Below are positions 56,120-62,228 of a stretch of DNA of 64,000 nt, piece after piece (position 1 is the first letter of the stretch; each line of letters begins with the position of its first letter). The position numbers and the translations under genes were made by a program. The DNA comes from an uncultured Bacteroidota bacterium (GTDB lineage: Bacteria > Bacteroidota > Bacteroidia > Chitinophagales > Chitinophagaceae): assembly GCA_903858475.1 (NCBI GenBank), contig CAIOIZ010000116.1:1-64000 (forward strand), read 5' to 3'. The notes beneath the pieces were generated by a model, which was not told the DNA's origin, made no database searches, and was given only the letters and a program-made list of their open reading frames with translations.

Positions 56120-56209
<90 letters not shown>

Positions 56210-56226
56210 AGATTTTTTTTGGATGA

Positions 56227-56279
56227 GTACGGGTCATTCTGTTCCGCCACGGCGGATCGAATCCCACCCTCTCCGCAGA
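56227..56279 (+). repeat. Partial duplicate of tRNA-Ser 3' half
   Basis: gtacgggtcattctgt and tcgaatcccaccctctccgcaga repeat 56165-56212 of the tRNA. The junction between them is replaced by TCCGCCacGGCGGA, a small hairpin that removes the 5' side of the T arm. There is no acceptor or anticodon stem, so it is not a functional tRNA. Confidence 0.85.
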
Positions 56280-56303
56280 AGTTCTTATAAAAATATTACC
56301 GTT

Positions 56304-56378
56304 CGGGGCGTAGCGTAGCCCGGTTATCGCGCCTGGTTTGGGACCAGGAGGTCGCAAGTTCGAATCTTGCCGCCCCGA
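56304..56378 (+). tRNA. tRNA-Pro(TGG)
   Basis: CGGGGCG pairs with CGCCCCG (56371-56377). The anticodon stem/loop CCTGG-ttTGGga-CCAGG gives TGG. T arm GCAAGTTCGAATCTTGC. A terminator hairpin begins directly after the 3' end. Confidence 0.95.
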
Positions 56379-56422
56379 CAAAATAATTAAAGCCTTGGCG
56401 ATAGCCAGGGCTTTTTTATTTT
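56379..56422 (+). terminator. tRNA-operon terminator (plus-strand copy)
   Basis: CAAAATAATTAAAGCC-TTGGC-gata-GCCAG-GGCTTTTTTATTTT: a stem plus T-tract immediately after tRNA-Pro. Its flanks recur inverted at 56453-56503 and 56620-56667. Confidence 0.8.
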
Positions 56423-56536
56423 GTAGCATGCGAGCTCGCTCGCTAATGCGGAAAAATAAAAAAGCCCGTAGCCAGTGCTAACTGGCAGGCTTTAATTATT
56501 TTGAACCACCCCCCTTTAAGATCACCGCAGGTAATC
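56419..56536 (-). repeat. 118-bp direct repeat, copy A (minus-strand terminator hairpin)
   Basis: Begins ttttgtagcat and ends gcaggtaatc; it contains the palindrome GCGAGCTCGC. The hairpin GCCAGT-gcta-ACTGGC, inside AAAGCC/GGCTTT flanks, reads as a terminator on the minus strand (T-tract GGGCTTTTTTATTTT). Copy B follows after 45 bp. Confidence 0.85.
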
Positions 56537-56581
56537 TTGCTCTTTTTTTTAAGAAAATATTTTATACCAACCAGTTTTCCC

Positions 56582-56700
56582 TTTTGTAGCATGGCGAGCT
56601 CGCTCGCTAATGCGGAAAAATAAAAAAGCCCGTAGCCGGTGATAACCGGCAGGCTTTAATTATTTTGAACCACCCCCTCTTAAGATCACCGCAGGTAATC
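56582..56700 (-). repeat. 119-bp direct repeat, copy B (minus-strand terminator hairpin)
   Basis: Nearly identical to copy A. The hairpin reads GCCGGT-gata-ACCGGC: relative to copy A, both partners of one base pair changed (A-T to G-C), keeping the stem. Confidence 0.85.
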
Positions 56701-57549: not shown

Positions 57550-57607
57550 TCGCTGCAATGGAAATGTAGCATTTTTAGCTTACCAATTAATTTATATATT
57601 TTTATTC

Positions 57608-57647
57608 GTGTACATATAAATTACCATATGGTAATTTGTATGTACAC
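57608..57647. promoter_or_regulatory. 40-bp palindromic operator candidate
   Basis: GTGTACATATAAATTACCAT and ATGGTAATTTGTATGTACAC are inverted copies with one mismatch in 20 bp and no spacer. The right arm contains the -33 TTTG of the promoter below, so a bound dimer or tetramer would block or reposition RNA polymerase. Confidence 0.7.
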
Positions 57648-57664
57648 ATGCCATTTTACCTTTG
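57635..57664 (+). promoter_or_regulatory. Promoter for beta-helix T9SS gene
   Basis: TTTG (57635-57638), 18 nt, TACCTTTG (57657-57664) fits the Bacteroidota consensus. Predicted start about 57669, giving a leader of about 265 nt. Confidence 0.6.
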
Positions 57665-57934
57665 TTGAAGTTAAATGCTATTCTATTTGAAAGGCATTCT
57701 AACCTATAAATTCCAACCTAATGAAAAAAACATTTTTAGTACTCCGCTTGCCTTTTTATTTATTACGAATCCTTTCTCAAATTACAAAAATTGTAGGGCC
57801 ACTACAACCAATTATACCTCACTCGTCGCCACAAAATTTAGTAACCCACATTTATTACTCCGCCTAAGAAAGGAGTAGAATTCTGTCAAACTTTAAAATA
57901 TTAAATATTCACATTAGCTACAAATACAAATTTT

Positions 57935-60900
57935 ATGAAAACAACTGTTTACGCTCATCAAACTAATAGTTTATGCAGCACTTTTTTAAAGAAAATTACA
58001 TACTTATTTTGGTCAATCTTTGTGTTTGTAATACTTTTTGGGAGCCGGGCAAATGCACAGGTGACTGTTTCGGGTTCAACAGGTGCAGATGGAAATTACA
58101 CCACATTAGGAGCCGCATTTACTGCCATCAATACCAACACTAATCAAAGCGCCAATAACATCGCAATAACGATTACTGCTTCCACCACTGAGACAGCCAC
58201 AGCCAGTCTGACGGGGCAGGCAACAAATACATGGGCATCGTTAAAAATTTATCCAACGGTTTCAGGTTTATCTATCAGCGGAGGCAGTAACACGATTGCT
58301 GATTTAATCACCCTGGACGGTGCAGACAATGTCACGATAGACGGACGTGTGAATCAAACAGGCTCCAAAGACCTGGTTATAACAAATTCGTACAATAATA
58401 TTTACCAATACCTCTCAACAATCAAATTTATAGGAGATGCCCAAAATAATACAGTAAAATACTGTACGGTAAAAGGTTTGAATAATTATTATCAATCGAC
58501 AGCTTCCGGTGTGATATTTTTTTCAACGGGTTCTTCCTCAGGAAATACCGGAAATACCATTGACAATTGTGACATAACCGGAGATGCCGCCGGCATCCCA
58601 AAGACGTTGATTTTTTCTCAAGGAACCGCGGCAATGGAAAACACAGCTACCATCAGCAATAATAATTTATATAATTTCAGGGAAAGTGGAATTTGGACAT
58701 CATCAAATAATAAATTATGGGTGATATCCGGAAACAGTTTTTATCAGACTGATATCGTAACATACACTGTAAGTTCTACTATGGTAATAAATTTAAATGG
58801 TGATGGTGATGGACATCAGTTGTACAACAATTACATAGGCGGCGACGGTCCGAATGCTACTGTAACTAACAGGAAATGGACTGTTAACAGTACAGGTGCA
58901 AACCCATTTGTGGGTATTTACATAAGGGTTGGCAAAACAACCGCCACGAAAGTATATGGGAATACGATTAAAAACCTTGACCTTACTATATCAGCAAGTC
59001 AGGCAGCCCCCTTTCAAGGAATCCAAATTTTTGCAGGGAATTTGAGGATTGGAACAGACGGTGCAAATTATATAGGTGATAACAGTACAACAGGAAGCAT
59101 TACCGTAAATGCAAATTATGCAATAGTGGCTGCCTCCTTTGGGATAAACCATAATAACCTCGGCACCGGCTCAACAAACATCTTAGATATCAGCAATAAT
59201 ATAATTGGGTCAATAACATTGGCTAATTCTACAGTTACCGGTAATTCAGGTCACCGATTTATAGGAATATCCACCAATCATGGTACAAATACAATTTATA
59301 ACAATACAATCGGAAGTGCCACTACCGCCAATAGCATTAATTTAAGCAACAATAACAGTTCAAGTCTTAATTCCGGCAATAGTCAGCATTTTGCAGGAAT
59401 TTATTGTACTACAAGTTTCTTATCTACTTCTGTAAATTCCAATACCATTGCCAATATTACAAACGCATGGAACGTAGCTGGAAGTGGAACAATAACCAAC
59501 TACGCTAACTGGGGCATATACTTTTCAACCACTAATGCAAGCGCTACTTCATTAAGCATCAGCTCGAATCAGATATACAATATCAATTCTGCATTGGGAT
59601 TACCAATCAATACGATTAACACTTACGGGATATTATTTTCTTGTGATAACGCAGCCCACGTTGCAACGATTGAAAATAATACGATCTATGGATTAACTAA
59701 TACAAATGCTACTTTTACAGGACAGATTGTGGGTATTTCTTATGCCGGGGCGGTTAATGCTAGCACTGTAACACGCAATTTTATTCATAGCCTGAGCATA
59801 ACCGGTGCCAGCAGTATAGGGGGGGCAGTATACGGTATCTCTATTTCCAGAGGTTCAACCACTTACGCAAATAATATCATCAGGCTGGGCGGAAATACAA
59901 AAACAACATTATACGGTTTTTATGAGACCTATGGTGGAGTGGGTGATAATAATAAGCTATATTTTAATACTGTTTATTTAGACGGCAACCTAGTTTCAGG
60001 TTCCACCAATAAATCATATGCGTTATATAATGCTTCAAATAGCACTACCCGTGATTTCAGGAATAATATATTCTTTAATGAACGTACAACTACGGGAGGA
60101 AGCAACCTGCATTATGCTATGTATGTAACTTCCGGGGGGACAGGGACACTTACCTGCAATTATAACGATTATATAGCTTCAGGAACCAGTGGAACATTGG
60201 GATACTATGGTGGAAATAAAGCAAGTTTGCCAATCGTCACAAGTCAGGATGCACAAAGTTTAAGTACTAATCCTGTCTTTGCAAGTTCAGTCGGCACAAA
60301 TTGTACAGATTATTATATCAGTGCTTCATTAGCTGGAGTAAGTGGCACTGGTATTACAACAGATTATATCGGTAACACAAGGGCAGCTACACCACAAATG
60401 GGTGCCTGGGAAGTAAATGTAGTATTACCGGTAACCTTTACCAGCATTAAAGCCACAAAGCAAAATAACCCTGTTGTGGGCCATTTGCCTGATATTGCTG
60501 TGGAATGGAAGGTGGATAATCAAATTAATATTAGCGCCTATGAAATAGAAAAATCTGTGGATGGTCTTCGTTTCAGTAAAGTAGCAACACTGCAGGCCAC
60601 AGGCACTAATGGAGCCAGGGTTATCTATAACTGGCTTGATATAAATGGGGTAAGTGGGCATAATTATTACAGGATACGCAGCATAGGTTTTGGCGGCTAT
60701 TTTAAATATAGTACAATCGTGAATGTTAATATGGGGGTTACAAATTATTTATTTACGGTTTATCCCAACCCGGTTACTAACCGGCTGATGAATATTCAGT
60801 TTACCGAAATGGATAAAGGCGTTTACCGCTTGCGGCTGATCAATACCATGGGGCAACCTGTATTTGTAACTGAGCTAACGCATACGGGTGGCAGCGTAAT

Positions 60901-61003
60901 ACATAAGGTAAAATTGGGTTACTGTGCAGCAGGTAATTACCAGCTGGAAATTGTTAACCCCGACAATACCCGAATAGTAAAAGCAGTGGTTATATACAAC
61001 TAA
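57935..61003 (+). CDS. T9SS-exported parallel beta-helix protein
   Basis: A 1022-aa secreted protein with a long signal peptide (transmembrane-like LFWSIFVFVILFGSRANAQV). Next comes a large right-handed beta-helix region (about residues 45-790) with repeating N-x-I and NNTI-type turns (SNNNLYNF, NNTIGSATT, NNTIYGL, RNFIHSLSI). After an Ig-like linker comes a T9SS type A sorting domain (FTVYPNPVTNRLMNIQF, AAGNYQLEIVNPD). The beta-helix shape is typical of polysaccharide lyases and adhesins, but no catalytic site was identified. It is probably controlled by the palindrome upstream. Confidence 0.82.
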   Translation: MKTTVYAHQTNSLCSTFLKKITYLFWSIFVFVILFGSRANAQVTVSGSTGADGNYTTLGAAFTAINTNTNQSANNIAITITASTTETATASLTGQATNTWASLKIYPTVSGLSISGGSNTIADLITLDGADNVTIDGRVNQTGSKDLVITNSYNNIYQYLSTIKFIGDAQNNTVKYCTVKGLNNYYQSTASGVIFFSTGSSSGNTGNTIDNCDITGDAAGIPKTLIFSQGTAAMENTATISNNNLYNFRESGIWTSSNNKLWVISGNSFYQTDIVTYTVSSTMVINLNGDGDGHQLYNNYIGGDGPNATVTNRKWTVNSTGANPFVGIYIRVGKTTATKVYGNTIKNLDLTISASQAAPFQGIQIFAGNLRIGTDGANYIGDNSTTGSITVNANYAIVAASFGINHNNLGTGSTNILDISNNIIGSITLANSTVTGNSGHRFIGISTNHGTNTIYNNTIGSATTANSINLSNNNSSSLNSGNSQHFAGIYCTTSFLSTSVNSNTIANITNAWNVAGSGTITNYANWGIYFSTTNASATSLSISSNQIYNINSALGLPINTINTYGILFSCDNAAHVATIENNTIYGLTNTNATFTGQIVGISYAGAVNASTVTRNFIHSLSITGASSIGGAVYGISISRGSTTYANNIIRLGGNTKTTLYGFYETYGGVGDNNKLYFNTVYLDGNLVSGSTNKSYALYNASNSTTRDFRNNIFFNERTTTGGSNLHYAMYVTSGGTGTLTCNYNDYIASGTSGTLGYYGGNKASLPIVTSQDAQSLSTNPVFASSVGTNCTDYYISASLAGVSGTGITTDYIGNTRAATPQMGAWEVNVVLPVTFTSIKATKQNNPVVGHLPDIAVEWKVDNQINISAYEIEKSVDGLRFSKVATLQATGTNGARVIYNWLDINGVSGHNYYRIRSIGFGGYFKYSTIVNVNMGVTNYLFTVYPNPVTNRLMNIQFTEMDKGVYRLRLINTMGQPVFVTELTHTGGSVIHKVKLGYCAAGNYQLEIVNPDNTRIVKAVVIYN

Positions 61004-61382
61004 ACCGCTATTTAATTTTATAACTGTAGCTAAGGGTATCTAAAGTGGTACAAATTTATACCAGCGTAAAAATTAGTAAGGTATTCCGAAAAGACAATCT
61101 TTTAAACGATTGTCTTTTCGGAATAAGCTGGGGGATGAATGCCACTGCATTGTCTCCCGACAAGCGTTAAATAAATAAACTCTTAAAGATTTTAAATTAA
61201 ATAAGTACAGCCGGGAATCAACAATTCTTCGCCTTGGTTGACATTGCACAACTGATATCAATCATATGTGCTACTACATATTTATGTAGGGATCTTTTAT
61301 ACTTATTATTATTAATTAGATGGAACTTTGGCGTGGGTAGTAAGAAAACCTTTCACCCTCCTAGATTCGAAAATTCTAACTT
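61004..61382. other. 379-bp intergenic region with strong hairpin
   Basis: Apart from the 17-bp inverted repeat listed next, I see no gene or known element. The 62-aa minus-strand track ORF overlies the hairpin and is unsupported. Confidence 0.5.
61083..61124. repeat. Perfect 17-bp inverted repeat
   Basis: ATTCCGAAAAGACAATC (61083-61099), 8-nt loop ttttaaac, GATTGTCTTTTCGGAAT (61108-61124). No T-tract follows. It may still stop or protect the transcript 80 nt after the T9SS gene. Confidence 0.8.
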
Positions 61383-62228
61383 ATGAAAAAGTCATTAAGC
61401 ATAATAGGCATAGCAATTCTACTATATTTTTCAACCGCTGCGCAAGTAGGAATTGGAACCAGTTCTCCCGTAACATCTGCTAAATTAGAAGTGACTTCTA
61501 CCAACAGTGGCTTTCTGCCACCACGGATGTCAGCAGTTCAAAGAAATACCATCCCCTCGCCTGTTGCAGGATTAATTATTTGGTGTAGTGATTGTGGAAT
61601 AAGAGGCGAATTGCAAGTGTTCGATGGAGTTAACTGGACTAATATTCATGGAGGCACCACTTTAGATCCATTATCTATCGGTGCACAATCGTGGATGCTG
61701 TATAATTTAAATGTTGACAAATACCGCAATGGTGACCCCATACCAAAAGTGACGGACGCAACTGCTTGGACTAATTTAGTAACCGGTGCCTATTGTTATT
61801 ATAATAACGATTCGGCTACCTATGCAGCTATCTATGGAAAATTATATAATTGGTATGCAGTAAATGATTCAAGAGGTCTGGCTCCTGCAGGATGGCATAT
61901 TCCTACTGAAATTGAGTGGACATCATTAACAACTTATTTAGGGGGCGAAACTATAGCTGGGGGACCACTCAAAGAAACAGGCACCGCGCATTGGGCAACT
62001 CCGAATACGGGTGCCACTAATAGCAGCGGATTCACTGGCTTGCCGGCTGGTTATCGTGCTAATTTTGGATCTTTCAGTAATGTTACCACTGGTGCATGGT
62101 GGTGGACAGCAACACAAGATAATGCAGCCAATGCCTGGTACCGGAGTACGAGTTATGGACAAGTTAGCATAGGTAGATCGTCGACTGCAAAACAGCTTGG
62201 CGCTTCTGTCAGGTGTATTAAGGATTAA
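61383..62228 (+). CDS. Exported FISUMP-domain protein
   Basis: A 281-aa exported protein (signal peptide ending STAAQVG). The N-terminal half (VGIGTSSPVTSAKLEVTSTNSGFLPPRM) resembles the beta-structured region often placed before such domains in Bacteroidota. The C-terminal half is a Fibrobacter succinogenes major paralogous (FISUMP) domain: QSWMLYNLNVDKYRNGDPI, YGKLYNWYAVND, APAGWHIPTEIEWTSL, GYRANFGSFSNVTTGAWWWTAT, GASVRCIKD. The family is of unknown function and is cell-surface or secreted. It has no T9SS sorting domain. Monocistronic. Confidence 0.82.
   Translation: MKKSLSIIGIAILLYFSTAAQVGIGTSSPVTSAKLEVTSTNSGFLPPRMSAVQRNTIPSPVAGLIIWCSDCGIRGELQVFDGVNWTNIHGGTTLDPLSIGAQSWMLYNLNVDKYRNGDPIPKVTDATAWTNLVTGAYCYYNNDSATYAAIYGKLYNWYAVNDSRGLAPAGWHIPTEIEWTSLTTYLGGETIAGGPLKETGTAHWATPNTGATNSSGFTGLPAGYRANFGSFSNVTTGAWWWTATQDNAANAWYRSTSYGQVSIGRSSTAKQLGASVRCIKD

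Follow-up and report, generated by a model that had tools for sequence, protein, structure and literature searches.

A putative Crp/Fnr box inside a long palindrome downstream of its regulator gene in a Chitinophagaceae bacterium

The regulator gene and the palindrome behind it

The DNA analyzed here (the window) is a stretch of 64,000 nucleotides from an uncultured bacterium of the Chitinophagaceae. It contains a gene for a Crp/Fnr-type regulator, followed by a long palindrome, a promoter-like sequence, and a gene for a secreted beta-helix-like protein, all within a few kilobases (Table 1). The regulator ORF ends 58 bp before the palindrome. The first-pass annotation had described a Crp/Fnr-type gene ending about 60 bp upstream, and both parts of this description were borne out. 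The protein has an N-terminal cyclic-nucleotide-binding-like domain (Pfam PF00027, residues 31-116, E=1.1e-12), and its closest solved relative is a cyclic nucleotide binding regulatory protein, PDB 3dn7, which matches over the full length (residues 6-188, E=7.9e-23) and for which we know of no DNA site. The family profile of the regulator aligns to the structures of FNR (41-225) and CAP (11-188), including the ETLSR/ETISR helix, and in a pairwise alignment with E. coli FNR, Q-S-L-S-R of the regulator falls opposite E-T-I-S-R of FNR. The C-terminal helix-turn-helix can be aligned to CRP/FNR and has no separate match among the Pfam helix-turn-helix families. The protein ends just past its recognition helix, which differs from the TPETLSRIR or TPEFLSKIR of most relatives. 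Within the genus, the best relatives of the regulator are 37% identical. No DNA match or orthologue of the regulator gene and the intergenic region was found in the 92 other genomes of the genus (93 in all), and a protein scan of the genome contigs found no relative. The comparison of orthologous intergenic regions proposed in the first-pass annotation therefore has no sequences to draw on. Farther upstream, after two tRNA genes (56120-56378), a sequence of ~180 bp, which includes GCGAGCTCGCTCGCTAATGC and AAGCCCGTAGCC...GGCTTT, occurs as a repeat with minor differences (window 56400-56700).

Table 1 Features of the locus, in window coordinates
Feature	Position	Strand	Remarks
Crp/Fnr-type regulator, 191 aa	56974-57549	+	recognition helix TPQSLSRLR, QSLSR class
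Weak terminator-like hairpin	57552-57570	+	right after regulator stop codon; 6 pairs, 3 GC, tail ATTTTTAGCT
Near-perfect spacerless palindrome, 40 bp	57608-57647		arms 57608-57627 and 57628-57647
Left outer arm GTGTACATA	57608-57616		not seen in homologous promoters
Core, putative Crp/Fnr-type box ATTACC-ATAT-GGTAAT	57620-57635		dyad 57627.5
TTTG, -33 element of the first-pass annotation	57635-57638	+	seen in 1 of the 14 promoters with 36.5 spacing
Right outer arm TATGTACAC	57639-57647		in promoter spacer, between box and -7 element
-7 element TACCTTTG	57657-57664	+	end 36.5 bp from dyad; 14 loci, the window among them, have this spacing
48-codon ORF, MKKTFLVLRLPFYLLRILSQ...	57721-57867	+	starts 57 nt after -7 box
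Secreted beta-helix-like protein, 1022 aa, presumed target	57935-61003	+	ORF; T9SS-type C-terminus

Inverted-repeat analysis of the window agreed with the first-pass annotation on the palindrome itself: its arms (GTGTACATATAAATTACCAT / ATGGTAATTTGTATGTACAC) are 20 nt each and 95% complementary, with 0 nt between them and one mismatch. This sole mismatch, T57617/G57638, corresponds to a G-U pair in + strand RNA. The feature had been given as 57608-57664, of which the start is correct for the palindrome and the end is that of the -7 box, the palindrome ending at 57647. The palindrome is not due to chance, because only one near-perfect palindrome is longer in the 384 kb of the genome sampled, which makes it the second longest. 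The first-pass annotation had also proposed a search for further copies; the 3.06-Mb genome holds one copy, even at 3 mismatches, and this single copy rules out a repeated element (REP/MITE). A degenerate 36-bp palindrome pattern had no match in other genomes or viral contigs.

The longest palindrome of the 384 kb lies in the window as well. It is spacerless and near-perfect, covers 44 bp at 61082-61125 (TATTCCGAAAAGACAATC...), and is found 79 nt past the beta-helix gene and 3.4 kb from the palindrome at 57608-57647, which means that the same beta-helix gene is flanked by the two longest palindromes of 384 kb. It resembles a gene-end hairpin, but has no clear U-tract. As the sequences of the two window palindromes are unrelated, we rejected the ends of a mobile element as an explanation.

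Core box, promoter and recognition helix in homologous loci

The core of the palindrome, TTACC-ATAT-GGTAA at 57621-57634, has the 5-N4-5 inverted-repeat geometry of a Crp/Fnr box. The 36.5 bp between its dyad and the end of TACCTTTG are a spacing shared with 13 homologous promoters. Since TAnnTTTG occupies -12 to -5 (PMC9723704), the dyad would be located near -41.5, with the start site deduced from the -7 box. The first-pass annotation had described a promoter with TTTG at -33, and this claim stood in part. The match TTTG-N18-TACCTTTG is present, and the pattern TTTG-N18..20-TANNTTTG is better than chance in this genome, because it is enriched between genes (9 in 110 kb of intergenic strand) relative to the coding strand (4 in 658 kb). 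However, the other 13 promoters of the 36.5 spacing class have no TTTG at -33, and the one in the window is likely just the A/T-rich flank of the box. Searching the genome for ATTACC-N4-GGTAAT at up to one mismatch gave 21 sites, the same number as the reversed-pattern control, and this genome gives no indication that the window box has a broader regulon.

To look at the arrangement in homologous loci, we scanned the DNA 3' of the stop codons of homologous crp genes for boxes of the form TTNNN-N4-NNNAA, in a set of 88 Crp genes that was then enlarged to 177 from the same order. Of the 88 homologues, 22 had a box no more than 70 nt past the stop codon, often within 30 nt, compared with 2.9 in shuffles. 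The controls gave 3/88 upstream of the same crp genes, 4/269 for other genes of the window's genome and 7/178 for the remaining genes of those loci. Upstream of the homologous crp genes, palindromes were not in excess either. When the TTTG of the -7 element was required at the proper distance, exact boxes were found in 43 of 177 loci (0.68 in shuffles, at most 5), and boxes with one mismatch allowed in 82 (8.9 in shuffles, at most 16). Measured from the dyad to the final base of the downstream TTTG, the spacing in this larger set was 36.5 in 14 loci and 59.5-60.5 in 27. The class with the longer spacing contains a weaker second box exactly 23 bp downstream, with 6.7/10 bases identical vs ~3 at other offsets. 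Both spacing classes therefore place a box near -41.5, the second box being 23 bp closer to the promoter. Genes start shortly after these promoters, and those tested encode proteins of YceI-like, F420-type oxidoreductase, pirin, cupin, DJ-1/PfpI, CLC channel and polyketide cyclase-like types. Two points count against reading the core as the box of the local regulator: more than half of the Crp homologues show no such box, and no other promoter supported by its spacing has a stop-to-dyad distance as long as the 77.5 of the window.

A close counterpart of the window box comes from another family of the order. In loci L151 and L155, a regulator with a QSLSR helix is followed, 4 nt past its stop codon, by the box ATTACCATAGGGTAAT at 36.5 spacing, and 15 of 16 bases of this box are identical to the window box, although both regulators are less than 30% identical to the window protein (28% for L155). 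These two loci amount to nearly one observation, because L151, a partial gene, is close to L155.

The half-site, at the level of sequence, tracks the recognition helix of the regulator. ETLSR regulators have TTGAT or TTGAC in 23 of 23 exact cases, EFLSK regulators mostly TTAAT, and TSLSR/STLSR regulators TTGCC. QSLSR regulators have TTAAC or TTACC (6/6 exact cases, counting the window), and the window pairs a QSLSR helix with TTACC. The observed agreement between helix class and half-site was reached in 0 of 20000 permutations. After collapsing proteins at 50% identity, with the helix region excluded, p was ~1e-4, and at 40% it was 0.017; relatedness is only roughly controlled in this test, and L151 and L155 are counted twice in its collapsed form, L151 being partial. 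Proteins with the helix (S/T)-R-E-T-L-S-R often have TGTGA-N6-TCACA right after the stop codon (L004, L015, L164 and L178), and TGTGA-N6-TCACA is the consensus of the E. coli CRP site.

Binding, regulation and the outer arms

The local regulator likely binds the palindrome core, because its QSLSR helix, the TTACC core, the 36.5 spacing and the L151/L155 match all fit the family rule; on these sequence features, we regard the assignment as well supported. The first-pass annotation had named the adjacent regulator as binder by inference, and this is now predicted from the box-after-gene arrangement, the spacing and the helix/half-site match, which recur in homologues. In the proposed mechanism, a regulator dimer would sit on the box at 57620-57635, centered at -41.5, and activate the promoter reading into the beta-helix gene, by analogy with FNR/CRP class II. 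The same layout recurs in the order: behind the stop codon of the regulator gene comes the box of that regulator, then, at a set distance, a -7 element, and finally a co-directional target gene. We consider it highly probable that the palindrome core is the cognate box of the upstream regulator and that a dimer at -41.5 acts on the beta-helix promoter, most likely as an activator.

The placement of the palindrome over the promoter had led the first-pass annotation to predict repression or blockage, and it was also suggested that the palindrome could hold two dimers. Repression by the local regulator would fit the overlap of box and promoter, and BT4338, a Crp-type regulator of Bacteroides, acts as both activator and repressor (PMC6989115). 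But the dyad at -41.5 is in the class II position, where the site is found at most promoters that FNR activates (PMC3688515), and the second spacing class adds an upstream box, as activation would predict. Moreover, most promoters of the set have no -33 TTTG and many of the 36.5 class have no TA in the -7 box, which is typical of activator-dependent promoters and fits activation, because an activator would make up for weak promoter elements. We infer that activation is more likely than repression at the window promoter, and that a repressing local regulator is unlikely. The two-dimer suggestion found no support, as the paired boxes of homologues are spaced by 23 bp, and a second TTACC pair is absent from the window at that distance. 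Binding of the palindrome by some other transcription factor, with the Crp gene nearby only by coincidence, is very improbable: the outer arms are unlike a Crp box, but the helix class, half-site, position and spacing of the core all match the family rule.

The outer arms require separate consideration. Arms of 20 bp compare with at most 12 (median 8 bp) in other comparable promoters, and their symmetry far exceeds what a Crp dimer needs, which counts against a Crp box as the full explanation. Going by these sequence comparisons, they are peculiar to the window locus. As + strand RNA, the palindrome would form an 18-bp stem of -23.4 kcal/mol in the tail of the regulator's transcript, with the single mismatch as a G-U pair, and folding of 57550-57669 gives z=-4.86. 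The long palindromes sampled in the genome are nearly all gene-end hairpins no more than 80 nt past a stop codon, which again counts against the Crp-box reading. These data would fit a palindrome that is the gene-end hairpin of the regulator transcript, either a terminator or a 3' stabilizer, with incidental promoter overlap. Such a hairpin, however, does not predict the TTACC-N4-GGTAA core, the QSLSR-class match or the 36.5-bp spacing, and no U-tract follows the stem, unlike in the genome's other hairpins; taken alone, this explanation is quite unlikely. An intrinsic terminator was rejected, as the stem is AU-rich, is followed by AUGCCAUUUUACC with no U-tract, and is absent from the terminator scan. 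Less doubtful, yet still tentative, is a combination in which the core would be a Crp box and the outer arms either the hairpin ending the regulator transcript or an operator at which a second protein blocks the promoter spacer, with TGTACA at 57609-57614 and 57641-57646 as the candidate sequence. The combination is consistent with 20-bp arms with one mismatch, far longer than in any comparable promoter, and with the right arm lying between the box and the -7 element. It is weakened by the outer pair (GTGTACATA/TATGTACAC), which has no other copy as a pair in the genome, no relatives and no candidate second protein.

The downstream gene and known systems

If the regulator activates this promoter, its functional target would be the beta-helix gene. 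This gene is only the presumed first target, because its start codon lies 271 nt past the -7 box, an unusually long leader compared with mostly 15-60 nt in homologues, and a 48-codon ORF intervenes. This ORF is possibly a leader peptide, or spurious; a short ORF starting MKQLLFFRQSLLHSLLHKISQ is also found in the unrelated DNA upstream of the nearest relative of the beta-helix gene (G034), where there is no palindrome. The type of target is atypical as well, as homologous regulator genes precede YceI, F420-type oxidoreductase, pirin, cupin or DJ-1 genes. The beta-helix protein has no Pfam or NCBIfam match, and its C-terminal domain is common to many other proteins of the genus.

Part of the beta-helix gene, 58247-60369 (L041/L070), shows 98.1% DNA identity to its nearest relative, a gene in another species of the genus, the aspartokinase gene of which is only 72% identical, and the match breaks abruptly inside the 5' part of the gene. 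This may reflect recent transfer, domain exchange, or a binning or assembly fault in one of the assemblies. Farther downstream, the region before a FISUMP-domain gene (window 61248-61388, L082) is 73% identical to the region before another beta-helix gene, on contig C3, and both regions contain CTACAT-N4-ATGTAG, perhaps a shared operator.

The class II activation mechanism of Crp/Fnr proteins is already known, and the window shares with FNR/CRP class II promoters the 5-N4-5 box, the putative dyad position of -41.5, and a Crp/Fnr protein with an E/Q-x-x-S-R recognition helix. It differs in having a Bacteroidota -7 element (TAnnTTTG) rather than -10/-35, in its TTACC half-site and 40-bp palindrome, and in a single local target after the regulator gene. 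In the literature on Crp-type proteins of Bacteroidota, we found only the motif of BT4338, although "Crp/Fnr" is unsearchable as written and a report of a box after the gene may have been missed. The Bacteroides Crp/Cur (BT4338) regulon motif is wwwTATGTTnTAnAACATAwww (PMC3878776), and BT4338 is a direct activator of fusA2 (PMC6989115). Both regulators are Crp-family proteins of Bacteroidota, and the BT4338 site is a palindrome of 22 bp, but the half-sites differ (ATGTT vs TTACC), and BT4338 is global with many targets, whereas the window regulator would be local. The geometry of the window site is also that of the PrfA box, TTAACAnnTGTTAA, from which the core TTACCATATGGTAA is one symmetric base pair off, and QSLSR homologues have TTAAC. 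PrfA belongs to another protein subfamily, and the resemblance is of the site only.

The DNA targets of Bacteroidota Crp/Fnr regulators are hardly known beyond Bacteroides BT4338. On balance, we think it probable that the local Crp/Fnr regulators of the order, perhaps of the phylum, have their own box directly behind the stop codon, at one of two set distances from the -7 element (one box at -41.5, or two boxes offset by 23 bp), and that this gives a code from helix to half-site that can be read from genomes, with the window as a TTACC/QSLSR case having extra outer arms of new function. For the window locus, the expected sign of regulation moves from repression to activation. Should the rule hold, sequence alone would suffice to predict where many such regulators bind and which gene they likely control, and the family would be a natural experiment on how the recognition helix sets DNA specificity.
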